From Methanospirillum sp. (GTDB taxonomy: Archaea > Halobacteriota > Methanomicrobia > Methanomicrobiales > Methanospirillaceae), in NCBI GenBank assembly GCA_012728895.1, contig JAAYEG010000006.1, positions 1-50,742 on the forward strand: DNA of 50,742 nucleotides, read 5' to 3'. A model generated the notes under the pieces. It worked only from the letters and a program-made list of their open reading frames with translations, was not told where the DNA came from and did no database searches. How positions within the stretch are numbered: the stretch's first letter is position 1; each line of letters begins with the position of its first letter. The translations under genes were made by a program, and so were the position numbers. This document shows positions 4,285-49,924 of the stretch, piece after piece.

Positions 4285-4848
4285 ATGGCGGGACGCGGAA
4301 AAGGCAACGAAGCACAGAAACGTGCGGAGATAGCCGGCCGGAGAGCAATCGTGGCCGAAGAGTACCGCAAGAAGAAAACCACCCGGCAGATCGCCGAAAT
4401 GCTCGGGTGCGACCACACCACGGTCGTCCGGGACGTCAAAGCCATTATCGCGGAACGCCGGAAGCACGCCCAGATCGATATAGAGGACGCGCTCGCCAAC
4501 GAGATCGCCGGCCAGAACGCCTCGGAGGCGAACCTTCTGGCGATCGCCGAAGACGAGGAGCAAACCCCCGCGACCCGGATCGCCGCGGAGGCCGCTCTCG
4601 TCCGGGTCCGGGGCGAACGCGCGAAGCTCCAGGGCCTCTATGCCGCGCAACGGGTCGAATTGACCGGGAAGGACGGCGGGACCATTGACGTCCGAAACTA
4701 TCACGCCGAGCTCGCTTCGGTCCTCGATAAGGTCTTTACCGCCGGAGCTCCGCCGGCCGTTCATGGAGAGCCTGAGCCCTCAGGCGGCGAAGAGGCTGGC
4801 GACGGATTGGGAGATCCTCTTAGCGAGGGACAACCAGCTCCCACCTGA
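4285..4848 (+). CDS. Terminase small subunit-like protein
   Basis: A 187-residue protein directly before the large terminase. Residues 20-60 are a helix-turn-helix (TTRQIAEMLGCDHTTVVRDV) as expected for DNA recognition by small terminases. Residues 60-130 are helical and could form the oligomer core. The last 50 residues are proline-, glycine- and acid-rich and are encoded in the stretch that overlaps the large terminase in another frame, which may explain their low complexity. The assignment rests on position and HTH; a transcription regulator is the alternative. Confidence 0.6.
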   Translation: MAGRGKGNEAQKRAEIAGRRAIVAEEYRKKKTTRQIAEMLGCDHTTVVRDVKAIIAERRKHAQIDIEDALANEIAGQNASEANLLAIAEDEEQTPATRIAAEAALVRVRGERAKLQGLYAAQRVELTGKDGGTIDVRNYHAELASVLDKVFTAGAPPAVHGEPEPSGGEEAGDGLGDPLSEGQPAPT

Positions 4849-6466
4849 AGGCGACTGGACCAAGTGGCTTTTACTTTCTGGGAGAGGAAGCGGGAAGGCC
4901 CTCGCGCTCGACACGCCCCTCCCGACTCCCGGCGGATGGACGACCATGGGGGAGGTCCGGCCCGGGGCCCGCCTCTTCGACGAGACCGGCGCCCCGTGCA
5001 CCGTTACGGCCGTGCACGAGGTCCAATTCGGCCGGCCGTGCTACCGGGTGGTCTTCGATGACGGATCGGCCATAGTCGCCGACGCGGGGCACCTCTGGCG
5101 CACAACGGCGCGCGCCACGGGCCCGGCCACGGTCACGACCGATGAGATCCGCGCCACCCTCACCCACGGGCCCCGCGGCGACTTCAACCACTCCATAGAC
5201 GGCCCGGGAGACCTCTGCCGCGCGATCGTCGCCGTCGAGCCCGTCGCGTCCGTCCCCGTGCGCTGTATCGTGGTGGACTCGCCCTCGCACCTCTTCCTCG
5301 CCGGCCGCTTCATGGTCCCGACCCATAACAGCCGCGCGGGGGCCGAGTGGGTGATCAAGACGGCCCGCAATAACCCCGGGTGCCGGATCGCCATGGTCGC
5401 CAGGACCGCGGCCGACGTGCGCGACGTCATGATCGAAGGCGACTCGGGGATCATGAACATCAGCCCCGCCGACTTCACGCCCCGCTACCGGCCGAGCATC
5501 CGCCGGCTGGAGTGGCCGAACGGGAGCCAGGCCACCCTCTTCAGCGCCGAGGAGCCCGACGCGCTCCGGGGCCCCCAGCATCATTTCGGGTGGTTGGACG
5601 AGATCGCGGCGTGGTCCCACCCCGAGGCTTTTGAAATGTTCCTCTTCGGCCTCCGGCTCGGCACTCACCCCCGGGTCGTGATCACAACGACCCCGCGGCC
5701 GACGAAGATCATCAAGGATCTCATCGCCGACCCCACCTGTGTCACCGTCCGGGGCTCGACCTACGAGAACCGGGCCAACCTCGCGCCCGCCTACTTCTCC
5801 CAGATCATCCGGAAATACGAGGGGACACGCCTGGGGCGCCAGGAGATCAACGGCGAGATATTGGACGACAACCCCGGGGCCCTCTGGACCCGGGCCATCA
5901 TCGACGCCAACCGGGTATCGGCCCTCCCCGAGCTCGTCCGGATCGTCGTCGGCGTCGACCCCGAAGCGTCCAGCGGAGAGGAGTCCGCCGAGACCGGGAT
6001 CCTCGTCGTGGGACTCGGTGCCGACGGCCACGGGTACGTCCTCGACGACGTGACGATCCGCGGGACGCCCGGGGAGTGGGGCGCGCAAGCCGTGAGCGCC
6101 TATTCCCGGTGGGAGGCGAACAAGGTCGTGGGCGAGGTCAACAACGGCGGCGAGATGGTTGGGTATGTGGTCGGGACGTGCGCGAACGCGGCCAACGTCT
6201 TTGTACCGTACCGGGCCGTCCGGGCGTCCCATAGCAAAGAAGCCCGCGCCGACCCCGTGAGCGCCCTGTATGCTCAAGGGCTCGTCCATCACGTCGGCGT
6301 CTTCGCCGAGCTCGAAGATCAAATGACAGAGTGGGTACCGGGCCAGGGTATGCGGTCGCCGGATCGTGTCGACGCCCTGGTGTGGGCCATAACGGACCTG
6401 ATGCTCGACATTGAATACGAGGCCACGGTCTATGACGAGGTGCCCGCTCCATTGACCTCCTGGTAA
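4685..6466 (+). CDS. terL: Terminase large subunit with intein
   Basis: A 593-codon frame. Removing the intein (codons 72-215) leaves a 449-residue packaging ATPase/nuclease. GRGSGK, split by the intein from SRAGAEW, is the Walker A loop. FGWLDEIAAW near residue 288 is Walker B. VVGVDPEASSGEE, followed by VVGEVNNGGEMV, forms the RNase H-like nuclease core. The start is uncertain: TTG at 4685 keeps a SLPPELRRPFMESLS stretch that Terminase_6-type proteins normally carry before Walker A, while ATG at 4763 would lose it. The TTG start gives an unusually long 164-base overlap with the upstream gene. Active enzyme requires protein splicing. Confidence 0.9.
   Translation: MTSETITPSSLRSSIRSLPPELRRPFMESLSPQAAKRLATDWEILLARDNQLPPEGDWTKWLLLSGRGSGKALALDTPLPTPGGWTTMGEVRPGARLFDETGAPCTVTAVHEVQFGRPCYRVVFDDGSAIVADAGHLWRTTARATGPATVTTDEIRATLTHGPRGDFNHSIDGPGDLCRAIVAVEPVASVPVRCIVVDSPSHLFLAGRFMVPTHNSRAGAEWVIKTARNNPGCRIAMVARTAADVRDVMIEGDSGIMNISPADFTPRYRPSIRRLEWPNGSQATLFSAEEPDALRGPQHHFGWLDEIAAWSHPEAFEMFLFGLRLGTHPRVVITTTPRPTKIIKDLIADPTCVTVRGSTYENRANLAPAYFSQIIRKYEGTRLGRQEINGEILDDNPGALWTRAIIDANRVSALPELVRIVVGVDPEASSGEESAETGILVVGLGADGHGYVLDDVTIRGTPGEWGAQAVSAYSRWEANKVVGEVNNGGEMVGYVVGTCANAANVFVPYRAVRASHSKEARADPVSALYAQGLVHHVGVFAELEDQMTEWVPGQGMRSPDRVDALVWAITDLMLDIEYEATVYDEVPAPLTSW
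4898..5329 (+). other. Class 3-like mini-intein in terminase Walker A
   Basis: 144 codons inserted between the Lys of GRGSGK and the Ser that follows in the ATPase loop. The intein starts with Ala, not Cys or Ser, and ends THN followed by Ser. It carries the WCT triad that defines class 3 inteins: Trp67 two residues after the block B His (GHLW), Cys123 at block F position 4 (RCIVVDSPSHLFL) and Thr142 before the terminal His-Asn. In that class the block F Cys, not residue 1, makes the branched intermediate. About 45 residues separate blocks B and F, too few for a homing endonuclease. Confidence 0.9.
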
Positions 6467-6523: not shown

Positions 6524-6904
6524 ATGGGAGGTAACGGAGCATCGAGCAAGGGGGCCGGGGGCGGGGCAACCGTCCCCGTGACATCGAAGCGGTTTTACAC
6601 GATGCCGGCGCGCGACATGCCGGCCGAGACTGCGACCGTTGCCGGGCGCAAGCTCGCCGCACAAAACGGGTTCGTTGATTACAACTACCGCGGGATCATC
6701 CTGCGGCGAAAGACGGACGGGAGCTACATCGCTCCGCTCTATTACGACCAGCTCAAGTGGCTGAGTCGGTACGGCTACCCCAAGAAGGGCGGGGGGCCGG
6801 CGACCGTGAAGGCGATGGAATCAACGATCGATAAGGCCCTGGCGAACGCCGAGAAGGCCCTGAAGAAGGCGGCGGACGCCCGGAAGAGGAAGAAGGCGAC
6901 GTAG
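6524..6904 (+). CDS. MGGxGASS-tagged protein 1
   Basis: A 126-residue basic protein beginning MGGNGASSKGAGG, a tag shared with the proteins at 8999 and 9374. GGAGGGTG lies four bases before the ATG. The middle contains FVDYNYRGIILRRKTDG and the end is a lysine/alanine-rich helix (NAEKALKKAADARKRKK). It directly follows the terminase and could be a small virion or packaging-associated protein. The tag is almost identical at the DNA level to that at 8999. Function unknown. Confidence 0.65.
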   Translation: MGGNGASSKGAGGGATVPVTSKRFYTMPARDMPAETATVAGRKLAAQNGFVDYNYRGIILRRKTDGSYIAPLYYDQLKWLSRYGYPKKGGGPATVKAMESTIDKALANAEKALKKAADARKRKKAT

Positions 6905-7672
6905 ATGGGCGCCGGCTATGCCATGCGGAACTGCGTGAAGCCGTGCGGGTCGCTCGACACCCAGAACACCCGGCTTTTGGACTTCGTCGACGTCACGAAC
7001 GACTCGGAAATGCCGATCATCCACGACACCCTCCTGAGTCCGCCGGCCGAGATCATGATCTGGGAGGGCCGGCCCCGGCTCTATGCGGGGAAGTTCGTCC
7101 ACCTCTACACGGAGGATTATCGATTTGAACAACTCTGGCGCCGGCCGGAGTTTTATTTACCCAAGATCCAGGCGTTCGCCGGGATATTCTCGCCCGACTT
7201 CTCCCTCTTCCGCGACTGGAATATCCACGTCCAGCGGAATAACGTCTACCGTTCGCGCCTCCTCGGCGCCTACTGGCAAGCGAACGGGATCCCCGTGATC
7301 CCGATCGTCTCGTGGGCCGGGCCCAAGACGTATTCGTTCTGTTTCGACGGGATCCCCGAGGGGTCCATGGTCGCGGTCTCGACCGTCGGCGTCCACCGCG
7401 AGCGCGAGGCGCGGGCGATGTTCAAGGCGGGGCTCAAGGAGATGCTCGACCGGATCCACCCGCGGGCCGTCATATGCTACGGGAGAATCGAGAAGCTCCT
7501 CGGGGAGGTGCCGGAGCACTTCTACCCCTACAAGCCCGACCTCGTCGCGAAGGTCTCGCCCCTCTACGAATATGTCCGGAAGGACGCCCGGCTCATCCCC
7601 CAGGACGGGCCCCTCGTGCACCTGGAGACGCCGGACGGGCCCCGGCGGGAGCTCGTGGAGGCGCTCGCGTGA
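6905..7672 (+). CDS. DUF4417-type protein
   Basis: A 255-residue protein starting immediately after the previous stop. It follows the DUF4417 pattern, a family frequent in mobile elements and phages: FSPDFSLFRDWN, then GIPVIPIVSWAG, FCFDGIPEGSMVAVSTVGV, and AVICYGRIEKLLG. The conserved W, D and G positions suggest an enzyme-like alpha/beta fold, but no activity is established for the family as far as I know. It has no membrane segment and overlaps the next gene by four bases. Confidence 0.75.
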   Translation: MGAGYAMRNCVKPCGSLDTQNTRLLDFVDVTNDSEMPIIHDTLLSPPAEIMIWEGRPRLYAGKFVHLYTEDYRFEQLWRRPEFYLPKIQAFAGIFSPDFSLFRDWNIHVQRNNVYRSRLLGAYWQANGIPVIPIVSWAGPKTYSFCFDGIPEGSMVAVSTVGVHREREARAMFKAGLKEMLDRIHPRAVICYGRIEKLLGEVPEHFYPYKPDLVAKVSPLYEYVRKDARLIPQDGPLVHLETPDGPRRELVEALA

Positions 7673-7851
7673 GCCGGCCCCGTGAGGCCGTGGTGGAGCC
7701 CCTGGGGCGCCTCGTGCTCCGGCCCGATAAGAAGGCCAACGGGGCCGCGTGCGATATGTGCGACCGATGCTTCGAGAAGGTCAACGTGGTCCGGGTCGAC
7801 GGCGACGCGGTCCTCATGTGCGACCTCTGCCTCTCGTTCGCGCTCTATTGA
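7669..7851 (+). CDS. Small zinc-ribbon protein
   Basis: A 60-residue protein from a GTG start in a GTGA overlap. Residues 28-55 read ACDMCDRCFEKVNVVRVDGD then MCDLCL, a two-CxxC zinc ribbon. The same ribbon pattern (TCDLC, KAELNVCRIDGE, VCSVCL) ends the protein at 10247-10513, so the two are paralogous. The following 25 bases are A-rich then T-rich (CCTTTTT), which could end transcription. Confidence 0.6.
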   Translation: MSRPREAVVEPLGRLVLRPDKKANGAACDMCDRCFEKVNVVRVDGDAVLMCDLCLSFALY

Positions 7852-7878
7852 AAACAAAATCAAAACCTTTTTCTCTCT

Positions 7879-7896
7879 GACTACCATATGGTAGTC
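7879..7896. promoter_or_regulatory. Perfect 18-base palindrome, operator
   Basis: GACTACCAT and ATGGTAGTC form a perfect palindrome just before the gene at 7909. The GACTACC/GGTAGTC arms recur at 9856-9878 before another gene. GGTGA, the ribosome binding site of 7909, begins at 7897, one base after the palindrome, so a bound repressor would cover the transcript start. Confidence 0.65.
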
Positions 7897-7908
7897 GGTG
7901 ACAACTGA

Positions 7909-8250
7909 ATGACCATCACCGACAACCACGCCGCGCGGGTCGAGCTCGCGCGCGCCGCGGTCGAGGCCGCGGAGGCCCGGCTCGGCCGCCTGGAGGCCGT
8001 GCGCGAGCATGGGGCCCCCGACCCGACGATCGCGGCGGAGATCGAGCTCGCCGAGCGCGACCTGGCGGAGAAGCGCCGGGCCCTGGATGCAACCGAGGAC
8101 GCGCTCTCGCGCGAGTGGTGCGGGACGTGCGCCGACTTCGCGCCCGAGCGCCTCCCGGGAAAGGAGACGAACCTCTATGTCGGGACGTGCCGGCACACGG
8201 GCGATCCGACCTCCTGGAGCCAGCGGTGCGGGTGCTGGAGGCGCGCCTGA
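7909..8250 (+). CDS. Coiled-coil protein with C-terminal Cys cluster
   Basis: A 113-residue protein. Residues 8-70 are a charged, alanine-rich coiled coil (AEIELAERDLAEKRRALDA). Residues 72-113 hold five cysteines (WCGTC, VGTCRHTG, RCGCW), likely one zinc site. GGTGA stands seven bases before the ATG. Expression is probably controlled by the palindrome at 7879. Function unknown. Confidence 0.6.
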   Translation: MTITDNHAARVELARAAVEAAEARLGRLEAVREHGAPDPTIAAEIELAERDLAEKRRALDATEDALSREWCGTCADFAPERLPGKETNLYVGTCRHTGDPTSWSQRCGCWRRA

Positions 8251-8690
8251 TGGCCCGCAAATTCCCGTCCGGCCACTACGACACCCCGCTCGGCGAGTAC
8301 GTGAACACCACGACCGGGAAGGCCGTGTACGCGCTCGCCGACCGTTCGGGCCGGTGGTGCGTCCGCGGGCCCGTGCTCGCGCACCGCACCGGCAAATGCG
8401 ACACGGTCCCCGAGGCGATCGCGAAGGCGAAGGCCGCCCTGGAGGTCTCGCACACGGCCGACCGGAAGGCCGGCAACGGGCCCGGCCCGATCGCCTGGCG
8501 GGAGGGGGCTCCATCGGTCCCCGGGCACCGGCACGGCCGGGAGGTCCGTATGACCGACGACTACTGCTCCCACCGGGGCCCCATGCCCGGGTGCGGGTGC
8601 GGCCGGTGGTGCAACGCGCGCCGCGTCCCCCTCTCGGCGGGCCCGTGCGATCCGAACTGCGAATACCGCACGGCCGCCCGGGGTGGTTAA
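8250..8690 (+). CDS. Unknown protein with Cys-rich C-terminus
   Basis: A 146-residue protein coupled to its neighbour by a TGATG overlap. The N-terminal 75 residues look globular (FPSGHYDTPLGEYVNTTTG, GRWCVRGPV). From residue 100 a second segment, MTDDYCSHRGPMPGCGCG then WCNARR and CDPNCEY, has six cysteines. An internal ATG at that point could allow a separate 46-residue zinc protein. No family recognised. Confidence 0.5.
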   Translation: MARKFPSGHYDTPLGEYVNTTTGKAVYALADRSGRWCVRGPVLAHRTGKCDTVPEAIAKAKAALEVSHTADRKAGNGPGPIAWREGAPSVPGHRHGREVRMTDDYCSHRGPMPGCGCGRWCNARRVPLSAGPCDPNCEYRTAARGG

Positions 8691-9009
8691 GACGGCCGTA
8701 TGCCCGATATGTGGACACCGATGGGTCGCCCGGTCGACGGCCCCCTGGCTGACGTGCTCACGGTGCCAGCGGAAGCATAAGCGGGGGGACGTGGCGCCCC
8801 GGGCCCTCGGGCTGGCGGTCGTCTATCCCGGCCGCGCCCGGTGCCAGGTCTGCGACGAGCTCGCGGAGGCCCTCGCGCCGGCCGCGGTCGGGGACGAGCC
8901 CGTGCTCGCGTGCGCCCGGTGCGTCGGAGCCCCGGACAAATGTGGAAATGTTGATATGCGGACCAGAGAAAAGAGAACACAACCAGGCGGTGACAAACAT
9001 GGGAGGTAA
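8683..9009 (+). CDS. Double zinc-ribbon protein
   Basis: A 108-residue protein, GTG start, overlapping the previous gene by eight bases. Two ribbons are visible: VCPICGHRW with LTCSRCQRKH, and RCQVCDELAEA with ACARCVGA. It resembles the proteins at 7669 and 10247 in layout. The C-terminal tail (MRTREKRTQPGGDKHGR) is basic and overlaps the start of the next gene. Nucleic-acid or protein binding is the likely role. Confidence 0.55.
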   Translation: MVKTAVCPICGHRWVARSTAPWLTCSRCQRKHKRGDVAPRALGLAVVYPGRARCQVCDELAEALAPAAVGDEPVLACARCVGAPDKCGNVDMRTREKRTQPGGDKHGR

Positions 9010-9370
9010 CGGAGCATCAAGCAAGGGGGCCGGGTCGGCACCCGCGAAGAACGCGGCGATCGCGCCCGCGGACGATCTGGAGCGCCTCAAAGCGATCGGA
9101 AAAGAGTGGACCGGCGGGGGAAACCATCGGATCTACTTCAACGATCTCCGGTCGCTCTACGGCCTCGATGCAACCTATTACGGGACGGGCAACATCTCGT
9201 CGGCGTCTATCGACGGCGTGGCTATCAGCAATAGCAAAGCCAGGGCGCTCGCCACGGATCTCCAATTCGGAAAGGTCTGGTACGACGTGAAGACAAAAAC
9301 CTTCAATCAGAAGGGGTTGTCGGATAGTGTATTCGAGCGCATCGTGAAGGCAATCCGCCGGAGGGCGTGA
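8999..9370 (+). CDS. MGGxGASS-tagged protein 2
   Basis: A 123-residue protein. The first 12 residues, MGGNGASSKGAG, repeat the tag of the protein at 6524, with nearly identical DNA, while the rest is unrelated. GGTGA lies five bases before the ATG. The body contains IYFNDLRSLYGLDATYYG, NISSASIDGVAIS and a basic end (RIVKAIRRRA). It was probably made by joining a shared 5' segment to a different body, or the tag is under selection. Function unknown. Confidence 0.6.
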   Translation: MGGNGASSKGAGSAPAKNAAIAPADDLERLKAIGKEWTGGGNHRIYFNDLRSLYGLDATYYGTGNISSASIDGVAISNSKARALATDLQFGKVWYDVKTKTFNQKGLSDSVFERIVKAIRRRA

Positions 9371-9373
9371 TCC

Positions 9374-9844
9374 ATGGGTGGAAGTGGGGCGTCCTCGCGG
9401 CCGGCACCCAACCGGACCACATACCCCGACCCGGTCGCGGGCCAGGCGATCGTCGGCGAGACGTACGACGGCGTAACGTACCGCATGACCCGGAACGACC
9501 TCAAGAAGTCCGTCCCGGAAGACGAGCGCCTCAAGGCCGCCGCGGAAGCCCTCGCCGCACTCGACGCCGAGAAGGCCCGCCTGGGGAGGAAATACCCCTT
9601 GCGAAAGCGCGAACTCGCCCGGCAACAGCTCATGAGCTCGGTCGACTACCGCCTTGGCCTCGGCCAGGGCAAGCTCGACCGCATCCGGGGCGTGTCGTAC
9701 ACCGAAGCCAGAACGACCTCGGCGTATAACATGGGCTATCACGAGGGGTGGAACGACAACCCGAGCCACTGGAAGCAGCAGAGGGCCACAAACCCGAACT
9801 TTTGGGCCCACGACAACAAAAAGCCGGTGCGGAAGCGGCGGTAA
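9374..9844 (+). CDS. MGGxGASS-tagged protein 3
   Basis: A 156-residue basic protein with the tag MGGSGASSRPAPN. The middle is a helix (ERLKAAAEALAALDAEKARL); the C-terminal third has YNMGYHEGWNDNPSHWKQQR and ends in a K/R-rich tail. It follows the previous tagged gene by three bases. The DNA of the tag is more divergent than in the other two copies, so similarity here seems kept at the protein level. Function unknown. Confidence 0.6.
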   Translation: MGGSGASSRPAPNRTTYPDPVAGQAIVGETYDGVTYRMTRNDLKKSVPEDERLKAAAEALAALDAEKARLGRKYPLRKRELARQQLMSSVDYRLGLGQGKLDRIRGVSYTEARTTSAYNMGYHEGWNDNPSHWKQQRATNPNFWAHDNKKPVRKRR

Positions 9845-10563: not shown

Positions 10564-10626
10564 ATGGTGGGTCGGGGTCGTTATCGGAGGCCGGGGAACA
10601 CTCAGCGCGACCGCGGGGGGCACTAA
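10564..10626 (+). CDS. Arginine-rich 20-residue leader peptide
   Basis: A short frame MVGRGRYRRPGNTQRDRGG plus H, with stop TAA overlapping the portal ATG. The sequence GGGGCACTAATGG surrounds both its own start and the portal start, a 13-base direct repeat 62 bases apart. It may be a leader peptide that couples translation to the portal, or a duplicated start. No homology recognised. Confidence 0.4.
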   Translation: MVGRGRYRRPGNTQRDRGGH

Positions 10627-13139
10627 TGGCCGCCCGCGTCTCCAACCGGGTGATCGCCGAACGGATCGATGAATTAGAAACGTTTATCGAGGATTCACTC
10701 ACCGAGGCCGTCTCGGCGAACGCCTCGTGGAAAGACCCCCTCACCCTCACCCTCGCGCTCGGCGACGGCGAGGACGAGTATTCAGTGGATCAGATCCGCG
10801 AGGCCGCGCGGAATTGTTACGAGGCGTACCACGCGAACGCCCTCATCCGCCGGGCCGTCAACGTCAAGAGCCACTTCGTCTGGGGCCGGGGCGTCACCAT
10901 CACCTCGGACCAGGTAGAGGTCAACGCGGTCCTCACCGACTGGCTCGAACGAAACCAGGGAGAGCTCGGCCACCTGGGGCGGGTCGAGAAGGAGATCCAG
11001 GTCCAGATCGGCGGCAATTTATTCTTACTCTGCCAGGTCGACGAGCTCGGCGCCGTGGAGGTCGTGACCGTCCCGATCAGCGAGATCGCCGGCTACCTCC
11101 GCGACCCGAAAAACCCGCGGAAGGTCTGGTACTGGAAACGGACGTTTACGGAGTACACGGTCCAGAAGGACGGCACGAGTACGGGAAAGAGCCAAACCTA
11201 CTGGTATCCGGCGCTCGGGCATAATCCCGAAAAGCAACCGAAGACGATCGGGGGGACGCCCGTCGTCTGGACCGACCGGCTCTACCACGCGCCCCTCCCG
11301 CGCGCGGGAAAGGGCGTGTACGGCCTCCCGGCGATCGTGGCGGGGATCCCGTGGGGCAAAGCCTACACGCAACACCTGAGCAACGTGGCGAGCATCAACG
11401 CGGCCCTCGCGACCTTCGCGTGGAAAGCGACCGGGGCGAACCCGGCCGCGGCCCGCGCCGTCGCGGACATCGTCGACCGCCAGAAGAGGACGCCGATCCC
11501 GGCCGGGTCCACGCTCGCCTCGACCCCCGGGGTCACCATGGAGCCGATCCGGACGGCCGGGGTCGCCACGAGCGCGGACGAGGCCCGCCGCTTCGCGCTC
11601 ATGGTGTGCTCCGACACGGACGTCCCCGAGCATATCCTCCTCGGGGATCCCAGTACGGGGAACCTCGCGACCACGAAGACGATGGAGCGCCCCCTGGAGC
11701 TCGCCGTGCTCGACCGTCAGGCGTGGTGGGTCGATACCCTCACCCTCCTGGGGTCGTTCGCGGTCGAGGCCCGGGTGCTCGCGCAAGGCTTCGCCCCGCT
11801 CACCGGCAAGGTCGAGTTCGACGACTGGGGCCGGCGCCAGGTGCTCGTCTCCGTCCGCCGGGTCGTGAAGGACCACGAGACGGATCGCGAGGTCACGGAA
11901 GCCCGGGCCGCGAAGGCCGCGCCCGGCACGAAGGCGACGAAGAAGGAGGCCGCCGACGCGAACCTCGGGCCCGTCCGGGAAGAGGTCGCCGAGGTCACGG
12001 TCGAGTTCCCCGCGATCCTCGAACACGACCCGGTCTCGGAGGTCGCCGCCATCATCAGCGCCGCGACCGCCGGCACGGGGTCGCTCGCCGGGATCATGGA
12101 CCGGGCCACCTTCCAGCGGTTGCTTTTGCGGGCCCTCAACATCCCGAACGTGGACGACGCGATCGCCGAGATGGACGACGAGGACATCGCCCGCCAGGTC
12201 GAGAGGCATGAGAACCCGCCCGAGCTGGAGCTCGCCCGCCAGGCCCAGGCCGCGAAGCTCGGCGGGGAGGAGCCCGACGAGGACGACGAGGACGCGCCGC
12301 CGGCGAAGAAGGGCGTGAAGAAGCCGACGAAGCGCTCCCGGGACAACGACGTCGAAGAAGGGATCGAAGAGTCGCTCTCGGCCGTCGCGACCGCGCTCCA
12401 GGAGGTCGCCCGGACGGCCCTGGTGGAGGCGGAGCTCGCCGAAGCCTTCGATCCCACGGCCCCGGGGAAGTGGGTCACCCTGAAGGACGGCCGGCGGGTC
12501 TACATTAAGGACAAGGGGGCCGGCACGGGCCCGATGGGCCCCGGGACCGCCCAGTCGACGCTCGGGGCGGAACCGGCACCGGCACCGGAGCAACTGGCAC
12601 CCGGGCCCGTCGACGAGCGCGGCCGGCCGGCCGCCGTGCGGAAACGGCTCGACGAGTTCACCGAATGGCACGCCGAGGACCGGGTCGAGAGCCTCCTCGT
12701 CGTGGCCCCCGACGGCTCGACCGTCTTCTACGGGACCGGGGACGTGCGAGGCGTCCCGTTCGACCCCGAGGACGCGGCGAAGTTCCCGGGATGCACGGCG
12801 ATCCACAACCACCCGAGCGACAATTCCTTTTCGGATAAGGATCTCGCGATGACCGTAACGCACGGGATCGCCGAGCACGTCGTCGTCTCGCCGAAGTACG
12901 TCTTCTCCCTCGACACAACGGCGTACTCCGATCACGACGCGCACCTGGCCCTTGCCCGGCACGCGGTCGCCGAGGGCTCCCTGTATGCGAAATATCGCCC
13001 GAAGGTCCGGTCTGGAGAGATGGGCGAGAAAGAGGCGAGCAATGAGCACACACACGAGACCATGCAGATCGTGGCGTCCGAGTATCCCGGGATTCACTAC
13101 ACCCGGTGGATCCGCGGAAAGGGGATGGGGATACGATGA
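10626..13139 (+). CDS. Portal protein with C-terminal JAB/MPN-like domain
   Basis: An 837-residue protein, much longer than usual portals. Residues 1-480 have portal features: IRRAVNVKSHFVWG, WYWKRTFTEYTVQ, YHAPLPRAGKGVYGLP and a helical stem. Residues 530-600 are acidic then basic and disordered. Around residue 617, GKWVTLKDGRRVYIKD precedes a linker. Residues 650-800 resemble a JAB/MPN metallopeptidase: HNHPSDNSFSDKD at 727-739 supplies two His and an Asp, one residue shorter than the classical JAMM spacing. It may be a portal-anchored protease or an effector carried into the cell. The portal call is strong, the JAB call moderate. Confidence 0.85.
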   Translation: MAARVSNRVIAERIDELETFIEDSLTEAVSANASWKDPLTLTLALGDGEDEYSVDQIREAARNCYEAYHANALIRRAVNVKSHFVWGRGVTITSDQVEVNAVLTDWLERNQGELGHLGRVEKEIQVQIGGNLFLLCQVDELGAVEVVTVPISEIAGYLRDPKNPRKVWYWKRTFTEYTVQKDGTSTGKSQTYWYPALGHNPEKQPKTIGGTPVVWTDRLYHAPLPRAGKGVYGLPAIVAGIPWGKAYTQHLSNVASINAALATFAWKATGANPAAARAVADIVDRQKRTPIPAGSTLASTPGVTMEPIRTAGVATSADEARRFALMVCSDTDVPEHILLGDPSTGNLATTKTMERPLELAVLDRQAWWVDTLTLLGSFAVEARVLAQGFAPLTGKVEFDDWGRRQVLVSVRRVVKDHETDREVTEARAAKAAPGTKATKKEAADANLGPVREEVAEVTVEFPAILEHDPVSEVAAIISAATAGTGSLAGIMDRATFQRLLLRALNIPNVDDAIAEMDDEDIARQVERHENPPELELARQAQAAKLGGEEPDEDDEDAPPAKKGVKKPTKRSRDNDVEEGIEESLSAVATALQEVARTALVEAELAEAFDPTAPGKWVTLKDGRRVYIKDKGAGTGPMGPGTAQSTLGAEPAPAPEQLAPGPVDERGRPAAVRKRLDEFTEWHAEDRVESLLVVAPDGSTVFYGTGDVRGVPFDPEDAAKFPGCTAIHNHPSDNSFSDKDLAMTVTHGIAEHVVVSPKYVFSLDTTAYSDHDAHLALARHAVAEGSLYAKYRPKVRSGEMGEKEASNEHTHETMQIVASEYPGIHYTRWIRGKGMGIR

Positions 13140-14365
13140 TCGGGATTGACGACTCGGCACACGAGCACCTGTATTACTCCCCGGTGTGCGCCCATTGCCG
13201 GCACCTGGACGAGACCACGCGGTTCAAGTGCGCCGCGTTCCCCGACGGGATCCCGTTCGCCATCTGGGACGGCGAGAACAAGCACACCTCGCCCGTCGAC
13301 GGCGACCACGGGATCCGGTTCGAGCCCCTCGCGGCCATCGCGGAGGAGGTCGACAACCTCGACACCTTCCGCCTTCCGCGCAAAAAGGCGAAGGCGAAGA
13401 CCAAGACCCGGGACACCTACGGGGCCCCGGGCCACTGGGTCACCATCCACGGCCGGCACGTCTTCATAACCGATGAGCCGAACAACCCCGACCGCCCGTA
13501 CGGGATCCCGTCGGAGCACCCCGGGCTCAAGGATATGCCCGATTGGCCCGAGGGCGAATCGGTCTTCGACCACAAAGTCCCGGTCCCGAAGGGCCTGGCC
13601 GAAGCGAAGACGACCGCCGACCTCGAAGCCTGGTACAAGGAGAATTACGAGGACTTCAAGATGGAGTTCGACGGGGCCGACTTCGAGACCGCCAAACAGA
13701 CGGCGATCACGTATAACGAGCTCGCCACGCGGTATTACGACCTCGGTGTCAATGTGAGCCGGGTGACCGTCGACGACTGGATGGACGAGAACGTGTACGC
13801 CGCGTATGAGAACGGGAAGATCTACCTGAACGGAAAGGCGTGGAAGGATCCCGTTGGGCTCGCCGAGTCCGTACGCAAGAACGAGGCAACCGGCTTCCAC
13901 CCCAAGGGCGTGACCGATCCCCAGTCGATCCTCGTCCACGAATACGGGCACGCCGTTATGGACGCGGTGAGCAAGGACCGCGCGACCACGACCTTCACGG
14001 GCTACACCCGCGCAAGCTCTCTTGCGGATCAATATGCGCGCCCGCCCCGTGAGGGGACCGTCGACGCCGCCATGCTTGAGTATTACCGGAGCTCCGACTC
14101 ACGGGCCGCCATTTCGGAGTACGCCGTCAAGGGGCGCTCCATCGACGAGGAGACATGGGCCGAGGGCTTCGTCGCGATCCATTACGGCGCCCCGGCGAGC
14201 GCGCTCCCGCGCGTGAAGATGCAACGGAATATCATCGAGATCCTGACCGAGTCGCGCCAGAAGGATCTACCGTGGCCGGTCGCCGTCGAAACGCTCCCCG
14301 AGAAGAAGCGCAAAAAGGCCGAGGCGGAGCTCGACGCCGTGCTGAGGAGGCTGAGGGACGTATGA
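13136..14365 (+). CDS. HEYGH metalloprotease-like head-associated protein
   Basis: A 409-residue protein starting at the ATG that overlaps the portal stop. Residues 15-62 are a Cys module (CAHCRHLD, KCAAFPDGIPFAIWDGE, then GDHGIRFEPLA), shared with the next protein. GHWVTIHGRHVFITDE near residue 103 matches a linker also seen in the portal and the next protein. HEYGHAV at 268-274 is a zincin active site, and a possible third ligand lies in ETWAEGF about 70 residues on. It could mature virion proteins or act in the host after injection. Confidence 0.75.
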   Translation: MIGIDDSAHEHLYYSPVCAHCRHLDETTRFKCAAFPDGIPFAIWDGENKHTSPVDGDHGIRFEPLAAIAEEVDNLDTFRLPRKKAKAKTKTRDTYGAPGHWVTIHGRHVFITDEPNNPDRPYGIPSEHPGLKDMPDWPEGESVFDHKVPVPKGLAEAKTTADLEAWYKENYEDFKMEFDGADFETAKQTAITYNELATRYYDLGVNVSRVTVDDWMDENVYAAYENGKIYLNGKAWKDPVGLAESVRKNEATGFHPKGVTDPQSILVHEYGHAVMDAVSKDRATTTFTGYTRASSLADQYARPPREGTVDAAMLEYYRSSDSRAAISEYAVKGRSIDEETWAEGFVAIHYGAPASALPRVKMQRNIIEILTESRQKDLPWPVAVETLPEKKRKKAEAELDAVLRRLRDV

Positions 14366-15429
14366 CCTACACCAGGGCGCCGGCCTGTATGGAGTGCCGG
14401 CATTACGAGCGCGGGACGGACGACCCGGTCCCGCGGTGCGCCGCGTATCCCGACGGGATCCCGGACGCCATCTTCTTCGACGGCAACCCGCACACGGCCG
14501 CCAGGAACGGCGACCACGGGATCCGGTTCGAGCCCCTCGCGGCCATCGCCGAGGCCGAAGCCTATCCCGGGACGGAGTGGAGAACGATAAACGGCCGGCG
14601 CGTCTGCATATCCGGAGATTGCCCCAAGGGGACGCGGATCGAAGACCTGCCGGGAGAGAAGGCCGGGGCCGGTTCGTTGGACGATCGGCGGTACCTCGAT
14701 GACAACGAGAAGGACATGTACCTGGGGGTCGACAAGCGATACGATCGCGACAAGAAAAAATACTATGTCCTCAAGTCGGACGAGGAGGAGAAGCGGCAGC
14801 GGGATCAAAAGGACCGCGAACACCGCGAGGAGCGGGCCCGGCTCGAACGGGAGGCGAAAGAGAAGGATCCGGGCGCGTTTTCAGTGGTGGTCGGGAAGAC
14901 GACGGTCCCGGGCGCCGTGTACAGGGTGGACTACCCGCTCGGCAAAAACTTGCACTGCGCATATTTCGACAAAGACGGAAACCATATCGATACCGACATT
15001 GGAAAGGCAACGCCCGACGAGATCGCCCAGTGGAGCGCCCGCGCGAAAGAGGTCGTCGCGACCACCGCGAAGATCGGGATCGACCCCGCCGAGGATCTCT
15101 ATGTCCGGTACGGCCGGATCCCCAAGGGCGGGCGCTCGCTCAATCACGCCACGCGGGAACTGGAGAAAGGCACGTCGGTCTATTCGGGCAAGTTCGACCC
15201 CGAGACGGGGTTATTCGACATCGCCGACACGCTCGGCACCGGGCAATTCCAGGTACTCGAAGCGGCGGGAAAGACCCCGTACCTCGTCCGCGGTGAGAAG
15301 ATCGGCACCGGGTCCGACGGCGAGCCCGTGCTCAAGGACGCCTATGCCACCCACCAACTGAAGGTCACCGCGGACGGCCTCGCCATCGTCAAGCGTCTCA
15401 GGCGGCCACGGAAGACAGGCGGGGGCTGA
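14362..15429 (+). CDS. Cys-module protein with unknown C-terminal domain
   Basis: A 355-residue protein, ATGA-coupled to the protease gene. Residues 8-62 repeat the Cys module (CMECRHYE, RCAAYPDGIPDAIFFDG, GDHGIRFEPLA) and then EWRTINGRRVCISGD. A charged coiled coil spans about 130-170. The C-terminal 180 residues contain GRIPKGGRSLNHATRELEKG, VYSGKFDPETGLFDI and TPYLVRGEKIG. I do not recognise this domain; by position it corresponds to the JAB and zincin domains of the two preceding proteins and may be another enzymatic or effector domain. Confidence 0.65.
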   Translation: MTYTRAPACMECRHYERGTDDPVPRCAAYPDGIPDAIFFDGNPHTAARNGDHGIRFEPLAAIAEAEAYPGTEWRTINGRRVCISGDCPKGTRIEDLPGEKAGAGSLDDRRYLDDNEKDMYLGVDKRYDRDKKKYYVLKSDEEEKRQRDQKDREHREERARLEREAKEKDPGAFSVVVGKTTVPGAVYRVDYPLGKNLHCAYFDKDGNHIDTDIGKATPDEIAQWSARAKEVVATTAKIGIDPAEDLYVRYGRIPKGGRSLNHATRELEKGTSVYSGKFDPETGLFDIADTLGTGQFQVLEAAGKTPYLVRGEKIGTGSDGEPVLKDAYATHQLKVTADGLAIVKRLRRPRKTGGG

Positions 15430-20859: not shown

Positions 20860-21876
20860 ATGAAATCGCCAGGTGGTGACGGCCCGGGAGTCCTGATTCA
20901 GGAGGACTTTCAGCCCCTCGTCGAAGCCGAGATCGCGGCGGACGGAACCATCCCTGTCTGCGTGATTAAAGCCGGCTGGTCGAAGAACAAGCGCTATTAT
21001 TCAGAGAGCGTTCTGACGCGCGCGGCCTCCATCTACCGGAAGGGGACGCACATGCTCTGGAACCACCCCGGGCCGAACGCATTACGCGAACAACCCGGCG
21101 GCGACTTGAACGCGATCGCGTCTGTTCTGAGTGAAGAAGCGCACTTCGACCCCGTCGGCCCGATCAATCCGAAGACGGGAAAACCCAACGGAGCGGGCCT
21201 CTATGCCCGGGCCCGGTTGATCTCCACGTATCGCGACCGTATCCTGGAGCTCGCCGAGACCATCGGCCTCTCGCACCGCGTCCGCGGCCGGGAGGTCGCC
21301 GGGACGGCCGAGGGGAGGACGGGGAAGATCGTCGAGGAGATCTACGACCCGGCGAAGTACGGGCTCCCGCCCGTGACCGTCGACTGGGTCGCGAGGCCCG
21401 CCGCGGGCGGGTCGGTCCTCGTCGAAGAGGAGGAGATGCACATGGTAGACGAAGAGATCACGAACTTTGAGGAGGCGATCGCCGAGCGCGACGCCCGGAT
21501 CACGACCCTGGAGGAGGCTCACGCCGCCGCCGAGGCCACGATCGCCGAGCACATGACCACGATCGCCGGCTTCCGCGCGCGGGAGATCCTCGCCGAGAGC
21601 ATCGCCGCCGCGAAGCTCGACGAGGCCGTGGAGGCCCGCGTCCGCGCCCTCGTTGCGGGGACGGCCCTGCCGATGACCGACGACCACGCCCTCGACGAGG
21701 CCGCCTATACGGCCGCCGTCTCGGAGACCATCGAGGCCGAGAAGAGCTACGCCGCGACCATCGCGGAGGCCGCACGCGCCGCGCCCGTCGGCGTCCCCGG
21801 CGGGTCCGGGTCGACCGGCGCCGTCAGCGACTTCCTGGACCGCACCGGCGGGATCCGGGCCCCGCGGAGGGGATAG
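20860..21876 (+). CDS. Capsid maturation protease fused to scaffold
   Basis: A 338-residue protein just before the decoration and capsid genes. Residues 25-200 look like a prohead protease of the T4 gp21 type: AGWSKNKRYYSESVL, MLWNHPGP (candidate active-site His), GAGLYARARL and LSHRVRG. Residues 200-300 are a coiled coil (FEEAIAERDARITTLEEAHAA), the usual form of a scaffold that fills the procapsid and is later cleaved away. The last 30 residues are glycine-rich. The catalytic serine cannot be named with confidence. Confidence 0.75.
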   Translation: MKSPGGDGPGVLIQEDFQPLVEAEIAADGTIPVCVIKAGWSKNKRYYSESVLTRAASIYRKGTHMLWNHPGPNALREQPGGDLNAIASVLSEEAHFDPVGPINPKTGKPNGAGLYARARLISTYRDRILELAETIGLSHRVRGREVAGTAEGRTGKIVEEIYDPAKYGLPPVTVDWVARPAAGGSVLVEEEEMHMVDEEITNFEEAIAERDARITTLEEAHAAAEATIAEHMTTIAGFRAREILAESIAAAKLDEAVEARVRALVAGTALPMTDDHALDEAAYTAAVSETIEAEKSYAATIAEAARAAPVGVPGGSGSTGAVSDFLDRTGGIRAPRRG

Positions 21877-48653: not shown

Positions 48654-48695
48654 ATGAGACGATCAACCGCCAATGGTGGTGAGGTGCAAGCATGA
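48654..48695 (+). CDS. 13-residue leader peptide, doubtful
   Basis: A frame MRRSTANGGEVQA ending in an ATGA overlap with the ParB/MT-A70 gene. It contains the ribosome binding site GGTGAGGTG for that gene. It may be a coupling leader or chance. Confidence 0.25.
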   Translation: MRRSTANGGEVQA

Positions 48696-49924
48696 TTGGA
48701 ACCCAGGCCGCACCGTCACCGGTCGGGGTTTTTGGAACCCTGCCTATATCATCCATTCGGATCAAGCCGGGCCGCCGGCCACTGAATGAAACAAAAGTCG
48801 GTGAGATTGCCGAGTCGATCCCGGTCGTCGGTCTGATCAACCCGATCACGGTCTCGGCCGACAACGTCCTGATCGCTGGGCTCCATCGGGTCGAGGCGTT
48901 CAACCGGCTCGGTCTCAGCGAGATCCCCGCGATCGTCTTCAGCTACGACGAGATACAGGCGAAGCTCGCCGAAGTCCTCGAGAACTCCGCCCGCTCCGAC
49001 CTCTCTGAACTCGCGAAAGGGCAGGCGCTCCTCGAGGCGAAGACGCTCTACGAGGCGATGCACCCCGAAACGAAACGGGGCGCCGCCGGGGCCGCCGCGA
49101 GATGGGATGCGACTGGCGAAACGCCAGTTGCATTTACAACAGTGGCGGCAAAAGAGGCGGGGAAATCGGACAGTGCTATATTTCGATCGATCCAGATCGC
49201 GAAGGCGATCGCACCCGACGTCCAGGAGGCGATCGCCGGCACCGACCTCGCCGACTCGAAAAAAGACCTGCTCAACCTCGCCCGGATCAAAGACCCAGAG
49301 AAACAGCGCGAGGTCGCCCGGAAGGTGCTCGCGGGAGAGGCGAAGGACGTCCACACGGCCTACCTCAATGTGAACCGCGCCGAGAAGCTCGAGGCGCTCG
49401 CCGAACCGGCGCCCATGAGCACCGCGGCGGGCTCCTATAATGTGATCCTCGCCGATCCCCCGTGGCGGTATGAGTTTTCAGAGACGTCCGGTCGCAAGGT
49501 CGAGAACCACTATCCGACGATGGATCTCGCCGACATCGCGGCACTGGAGATCCCGGCCGACGAGACCGCGATCCTCTTCCTATGGACAACCGCTCCGAAG
49601 CTCGAGGAGGGGCTAGACATCCTACGGGCGTGGGGCTTCACGTACAAGACCTGCGCGATCTGGGACAAACTGAAGAAAGGGCTCGGCTACTACTTCCGCG
49701 TTCGTCACGAGATCCTGCTCGTCGGGACGCGGGGCGACTTCCCGACGCCGGCCGCCGAGACCCGCCCCGACTCGGTCTTCTCAATACCGAAGGGCGAGCA
49801 CTCGGCGAAGCCCGAGATCGTCCACGAAATGATCGAGGCCATGTACCCGAAGGCCCGCCGGCTCGAGGTCTTCGCACGGGCGGCCCGGCCCGGGTGGGAG
49901 GTGTGGGGCAATGAGGTCTCATAA
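48692..49924 (+). CDS. ParB-like/MT-A70 adenine methyltransferase fusion
   Basis: A 410-residue protein. Residues 15-105 are a ParB/Srx-like domain (GRRPLNETKVGEIAESIP, NVLIAGLHRVEAFNRLG). Residues 105-235 are a helical middle with KSDSAIFRSIQIAKAI, like the ParB HTH. Residues 240-405 are an MT-A70 N6-adenine methyltransferase: DPPW at 255-258, HYPTMDLADIAAL, ETAILFLWTTAPKLEEG and LLVGTRGDFP. The DNA-recognition part probably targets the methylase. Viral use could be protection from restriction. The start is ATG overlapping a tiny upstream frame, with GGTGAGGTG before it. Confidence 0.85.
   Translation: MIGTQAAPSPVGVFGTLPISSIRIKPGRRPLNETKVGEIAESIPVVGLINPITVSADNVLIAGLHRVEAFNRLGLSEIPAIVFSYDEIQAKLAEVLENSARSDLSELAKGQALLEAKTLYEAMHPETKRGAAGAAARWDATGETPVAFTTVAAKEAGKSDSAIFRSIQIAKAIAPDVQEAIAGTDLADSKKDLLNLARIKDPEKQREVARKVLAGEAKDVHTAYLNVNRAEKLEALAEPAPMSTAAGSYNVILADPPWRYEFSETSGRKVENHYPTMDLADIAALEIPADETAILFLWTTAPKLEEGLDILRAWGFTYKTCAIWDKLKKGLGYYFRVRHEILLVGTRGDFPTPAAETRPDSVFSIPKGEHSAKPEIVHEMIEAMYPKARRLEVFARAARPGWEVWGNEVS

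Follow-up and report, generated by a model that had tools for sequence, protein, structure and literature searches.

Our results point to a short N-terminal header that unrelated proteins of tailed viruses have in common, and that is nearly always found together with a gene of the DUF4417 family. The window, that is, the whole stretch of DNA analysed (50,742 bases), encodes three proteins that start with MGGxGASS. In the explanation that we favour, whose chances as a whole we judge to be about even, MGGxGASS is the archaeal-virus form of a widespread header with the consensus M-G-G-R-G-[A/S]-S-S-G, with a flexible Gly/Ser-rich linker behind it. This header, recognised with a DUF4417 protein that is often fused to ParB, would mark interchangeable effectors of tailed viruses, probably for loading into the virion. 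Comparison of the sequences shows conservation of the tag at the protein level, unrelated cargos, a near-obligate pairing with DUF4417 and cargo of the effector type. Taken together, this suggests an undescribed viral way of marking effector proteins, perhaps for delivery. Full-text literature searches for MGGRG, GGRGASS and similar strings returned nothing recognisably on this tag at the level of titles and abstracts; no description of the tag or of its pairing with DUF4417 was found in the literature searched, which does not prove that no account exists.

Three tagged genes in the window

The window is an entire contig of a tailed virus, with genes for the terminase large subunit, portal, tape measure and minor tail proteins recognised with Pfam and PHROG. 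Methyl-coenzyme M reductase is encoded in the genome that includes this contig, and the host of the virus is therefore a methanogen. Among named isolates, Methanoculleus virus Blf4 and L4768 have the closest portals, with 33% identity over 43% of the query.

MGGxGASS starts are present, as originally predicted, at positions 6524, 8999 and 9374, all on the forward strand. Tag 1 (MGGNGASSKGAG, MGGNGASS; 6524..6559) opens a protein of 126 residues with a Lys/Ala-rich C-terminus (protein 1, 6524..6904), whose gene lies directly downstream of that of the terminase large subunit (4685..6466, forward strand; Terminase_6N/6C match) and ends directly before the DUF4417 gene. Tag 2 (MGGNGASSKGAG, MGGNGASS; 8999..9034) begins protein 2 (8999..9370), and tag 3 (MGGSGASSRPAP, MGGSGASS; 9374..9397) begins protein 3 (9374..9844), the cargo of which has no family match. 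The usual Arg at position 4 is replaced in these tags by N, N and S. Only these three fit MGGxGASS among the 7143 possible ORF starts in the window, where a degenerate DNA pattern of the tag has 3 matches against 0.00 in 100 dinucleotide shuffles; elsewhere in the host genome, no further match to the pattern is such a start.

Tags 1 and 2 constitute one 36-nt repeat that runs exactly from the ATG to codon 12 with a single difference (97% identity), which suggests that the header was recently duplicated in front of another cargo, and tag 3 encodes the same motif with other codons. The prediction that the first two tags are near-identical in DNA and the third alike only in protein is thus borne out, as is the divergence of the proteins after the tag, given that no similarity was found among the three beyond it.

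Searches of Pfam, PHROG and NCBIfam with proteins 1 and 3 gave no match, and no relatives of their cargos were found in the fetched loci. In the case of protein 2, the AF2 model (me4795b1bb129) has a confident alpha/beta fold over residues 23-122, and the first 22 residues, which contain the tag, are disordered (pLDDT below 50); protein 2 is thus predicted to consist of a flexible header ahead of a folded domain. PDB sequence and fold searches with this protein returned nothing significant. Its ORF has a possible alternative start, a GTG at 8942; with translation from there, 19 residues would precede the tag. The recurrence of the tag among relatives, on which the original prediction had staked itself, is seen for this cargo: a relative in a bacterial phage (L274) starts with MGGRGASS and lies immediately before a ParB-DUF4417 gene, and an untagged relative (L091) lies outside any head region.

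The window also carries untagged versions of effector types that are tagged in other viruses. The portal (10626..13139, forward strand; phrog_10963, 205 bits) ends in a JAMM-like domain (phrog_5057, 3.4e-4) homologous to the tagged gp30 of Streptococcus phage SpGS-1 (phmmer 4e-6), and a PDB search with this domain returned nothing. The untagged protein encoded at 13106..14365 on the forward strand has a metalloprotease domain (phrog_7153) homologous to that of the tagged protease L512 (phmmer 2e-7). A MuF domain (PF04233) was sought with Pfam and PHROG in the tagged proteins of the window and in their neighbours, and no match was obtained. A putative head maturation protease is encoded at 20860-21876. 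A ParB-type domain fused to a DNA methyltransferase (48692-49924) is possibly the ParB partner of the DUF4417 protein of the window, which is itself unfused.

Other features of these genes were observed. ORFs 13106-14365 and 14365-15429 have in common a Cys-rich segment, CRHx..CAxxPDGIP..GDHGIRFEPL, and a W(V/R)TI(H/N)GR.V.I motif that resembles GKWVTLKDGRRVYIKD in the portal near 12470; the segment and the motif form a second set of modules shared among ORFs of the window and the portal. The Walker A motif of the terminase (4685-6466) is interrupted by an intein-like insert (GRGSGK-ALALDTPLPTPGGW ... FMVPTHN-SRAGAEW).

The header across viruses and its pairing with DUF4417

About 190 clusters of proteins from bacterial phages, unrelated in other respects, start with the form MGGRG[AS]. 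The fetched loci comprise 279 with DUF4417, from which and from the remainder 326 tagged ORFs were gathered; one recurrent family among the cargo clusters accounts for 36. The only conserved columns among 124 tagged representatives are G2, G3, R4 and G5, with G2, G3 and G5 invariant and R4 present in at least 90%. We define GGRG-header proteins by GGxG[AS] at or near the N-terminus of unrelated cargos together with linkage to DUF4417; the set in the window has both, with N or S at position 4. Counts of pattern matches in IMG/VR were rejected as evidence on their own, since the 85 matches to the first pattern are close to a rough chance estimate and lie mostly in unrelated ORFs, and ORF context and linkage were used instead. 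Scans of IMG/VR combined with inspection of ORFs gave dozens of phage proteins that start with MGGRGASSG after a ribosome-binding-like site, on differing cargos. Two or three tagged genes occur per locus in L113, L131, L174, L186 and others.

The codons of the header vary freely at the wobble positions (entropy about 1.6-1.8 bits) and Arg is coded by both AGR and CGN, which indicates selection on the protein sequence. The motif sometimes follows a short leader (NIQLFGGRGASSG) or lies at about residue 67, and so behaves as a linear motif rather than strictly as a start signal. Two further likenesses were seen: the header resembles the Walker A loop of the terminase in some phages (GGRGSTKSS; L354 and others), which may be a coincidence, and a C-terminal motif, roughly TYERAxKR, is also common to some tagged proteins (L116, L139, L151).

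DUF4417 is present in 48 of 50 tag-bearing viral contigs, compared with 0 of 14 control genomes. When loci were picked by DUF4417, a GGRG ORF was found within about 1.5 kb in 139 of 160 (73/80 viral and 66/80 genomic, the latter drawn from several bacterial phyla). Near DUF4417 the permuted start motifs MGRGG and MGGGR occur in 0-1 of 80, and the background of MGGRG elsewhere in these loci is 0.002-0.005 per kb. Several of the loci lacking a GGRG ORF have variant Gly/Arg-rich headers in the same place (MGRGSSG, MGKRGG, MGSRGR, GGNGASS), and others have none. In 115 of the 160 loci, the start of the nearest tag falls between -250 and +60 bp relative to the DUF4417 stop; tags often overlap that stop, and a single DUF4417 accompanies one to four tagged proteins. 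A fusion to ParB was found in 54/160 loci, with a tag near in 52 of these 54, and a same-strand TerL lies within reach in 58/160, a count obtained with few TerL queries. DUF4417 itself is rare in the host lineage (2 of 232 genomes of the order, 2 of 393 of the phylum); no tag was seen near DUF4417 in the other archaeal loci (L229, L572). Linkage of the tag to MuF or to the SPP1-type portal was considered and rejected, these being present in only 7/50 and 24/50 tag contigs, respectively.

The tag had been associated at the outset with phage head regions. It does recur widely in tailed viruses, often in the packaging module, but it is not a general mark of the head region. In 80 head regions picked by the portal of phage A25, the tag, under a wider definition, occurs in all 23 that have DUF4417 and in none of the 57 that lack it, and 80 loci picked by the terminase of the window have neither DUF4417 nor tag. 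A naive Fisher test of this association in head regions gives 1.5e-20, a value that overstates independence because the sets include related phages. Close kinship does not explain the spread over bacterial phyla and one archaeal virus.

Several named phages have this arrangement. The tag-DUF4417 pair lies directly before the terminase in A25, phiNJ2, Jekyll, DO134P1 and SpGS-1; in two of these, the Streptococcus phages A25 and phiNJ2, there is an overlap between the DUF4417 stop and the tagged gene, which lies ahead of the terminase. Gene 1 of cluster A mycobacteriophages encodes DUF4417, and gene 2 of SheaKeira starts with MGGRGSGGG. For gene 2 of D29 (L230) and of Gordonia phage KatherineG (L234), an in-frame ATG upstream of the deposited start gives MGGRGSAGS (D29, with the ATG at position 1063 of its record) and MGGRGSGGG, respectively, each followed by a long Gly-rich linker, and the deposited start of A25 gp23 (L223) is likewise downstream of the likely one, which cuts off the MGGRG header. 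Among SheaKeira, D29 and KatherineG, gene 2 carries as cargo a metalloprotease (so annotated), a DUF3626 protein and an ADP-ribosyltransferase. A search of the literature for virion mass spectrometry of cluster A mycobacteriophages found nothing usable among the papers listed. In Streptococcus phage PP766242, a gene annotated as a DNA modification methylase encodes a DUF4417 protein. The DUF4417 gene of cluster L mycobacteriophages and the gene beside it (gp105/gp106, header MGRGRHSG) are located among tRNA genes, not head genes.

Possible roles of the header and of DUF4417

The tagged cargos match, in Pfam, glutamine deamidase (Gln_amidase, 9), ADPrib_exo_Tox, ART, PBECR2, MuF_C, CdiA_C, Ntox24, DUF6883 and DUF3626 and, in PHROG, peptidases, Alt-like ADP-ribosyltransferases, minor head protein domains and the JAMM-like phrog_5057. 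RNase-type domains are also found, and for one tagged ADP-ribosyltransferase there is a match to a minor head protein domain (phrog_16619). Judged by these matches, the cargo can be classed as polymorphic-toxin or polyvalent-protein type, such as phages package and inject.

The DUF4417 protein of the window (6905..7672, forward strand; 255 residues, no ParB fusion) matches PF14386 with 179.4 bits (cut-off 28.9) as well as phrog_940 and phrog_8680. Its AF2 model (m752307c63baa) has a mean pLDDT of 79.6, with a core above 90. In a Foldseek comparison with the viral library BFVD, the top three matches, which are unnamed entries 28-36% identical to the query, appear to be DUF4417 homologs, and five phage queuine tRNA-ribosyltransferases are found among ranks 4 to 9 (ranks 4-5 with probabilities of 0.98 and 0.96 and a TM of about 0.42). 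PDB sequence and fold searches gave nothing significant, the fold matches being weak TIM barrels only. No TGT match in Pfam was found for 40 DUF4417 members, and a profile comparison with phage DpdA (hhalign) was not significant (probability 0.2%, E 0.28); the identification of DUF4417 as a DpdA, a structural hint without sequence support, was rejected. Alignment of the family shows invariant H66, D71, D98, S100, N113, R116, S159 and G162, and these conserved polar residues indicate that DUF4417 may not be an adaptor but an enzyme.

In the explanation that we favour, the header would work jointly with the DUF4417 protein, whose gene is normally adjacent and which often carries a fused ParB-type domain. 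DUF4417, with ParB on the viral DNA, would bind or act on the header and bring the tagged proteins to the packaging machinery, and these proteins would enter the capsid along with the DNA to exert their effects in the next host. In the window, proteins 1, 2 and 3 would share a single DUF4417. We infer that the header loads its cargo from the terminase-side position in many phages, the type of cargo and the analogy with the capsid targeting sequence (CTS) of T4 and with MuF. The layout in cluster L, the presence of TerL in only 58/160 loci, the window tags without Arg and the polar residues of DUF4417 were counted against this explanation, as was the finding of neither proteomic nor genetic evidence for tagged proteins in virions. 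A bolder version, which we hold to be doubtful, is that of a new virus-wide delivery system, in which DUF4417, often clamped on viral DNA via ParB, would be a dedicated receptor or ligase for the five-residue GGRG header and would attach tagged effectors to the genome or terminase for packaging and injection, both in phages from many bacterial phyla and in an archaeal virus. Should the TGT-like fold be real, even a covalent link to DNA is conceivable, in which the header replaces the incoming base.

DUF4417 might instead act as an enzyme on the header, modifying it covalently (at its Arg or Gly, for example) and keeping effectors inactive, stable or marked, with no packaging role. The invariant residues suggest an active site and the model resembles the queuine tRNA-ribosyltransferases, but the comparison with DpdA is not significant, the PDB matches are only weak TIM barrels and position 4 of the header may be N or S, and we regard this alternative as unlikely. 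Less probable still is that DUF4417 acts as a chaperone or an immunity factor, using the header to mask toxic effectors while they are in the producing cell, with delivery by other means; the toxin-like cargo and the adjacency of the genes would agree with this, but a single conserved DUF4417 goes with many families of cargo, which is not the case in cargo-specific immunity, and many cargos have no toxin signature. That the tag is a nucleic acid feature, either a recombination joint for cargo swap or a translation or packaging signal, is very improbable: the repeat from the ATG in tags 1 and 2 and the frequent overlap with the DUF4417 stop would agree with it, but codons vary freely and tags also lie inside proteins. 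Recombination may nevertheless be a means of spreading the tag. A general head-region sorting tag, read by portal, scaffold or capsid independently of DUF4417 as first proposed, would fit the positions beside terminase or portal in the window and several phages, but is contradicted in that form by its absence from all 57 and 80 head regions without DUF4417, and we give it hardly any credence.

If our favoured explanation is true, a short sequence and one partner gene single out, among uncharacterised phage proteins, hundreds that are candidates for delivered effectors, some of them in well-studied phages (D29, A25) whose gene calls remove the tag. DUF4417 would gain a testable function, the way in which phages choose injected proteins would become directly testable, and the header could provide a simple handle for phage protein delivery.

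Comparison with known systems

Some fusions and gene orders recall systems already described. ParB-CTPase-DUF4417 fusions have been reported in phages; in the available part of that article no function is given for them and no mention of the tag or of tagged neighbours was found (PMC12704722). The fold predicted for DUF4417 may be TIM-barrel-like, as in the DpdA/tRNA-guanine transglycosylases of phages, and at the left end of cluster B-like actinophages (L565, L566, L568) DpdA is accompanied by a ParB gene ahead of the terminase, in parallel with ParB-DUF4417. However, the invariant DSGA and DSS motifs of DpdA are not seen in DUF4417, and there is no significant profile similarity.

Polyvalent proteins, described by Iyer in 2017, have a repertoire of ParB, ART, PBECR, metallopeptidase and JAB-type domains (PMC5512222), as in the tagged cargo. 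They are single multidomain chains, whereas the tagged proteins are separate chains with a common tag; DUF4417 is not mentioned in the main text of that article. The MuF polymorphic toxins of temperate phages have a constant header and a variable C-terminal effector, and are encoded near the terminase and portal (PMC5576092). They have effector domains in common with the GGRG-header proteins, such as ADP-ribosyltransferase, but MuF is a folded domain, present in only 7 of the 50 tag contigs, and the GGRG header a short linear motif that small, separate proteins carry.

In T4, the CTS of IPI, IPII and IPIII consists of about 10 N-terminal residues common to divergent proteins, followed by exchangeable cargo (PMC9026906). 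It acts via the scaffold core and is cut by gp21. The GGRG header is likewise an N-terminal tag on unrelated proteins; unlike the CTS, which it does not resemble in sequence, it is partnered by DUF4417 and is sometimes internal. The delivery proposed for the header would work like that of the T4 CTS or the MuF domain, while being unrelated to both.
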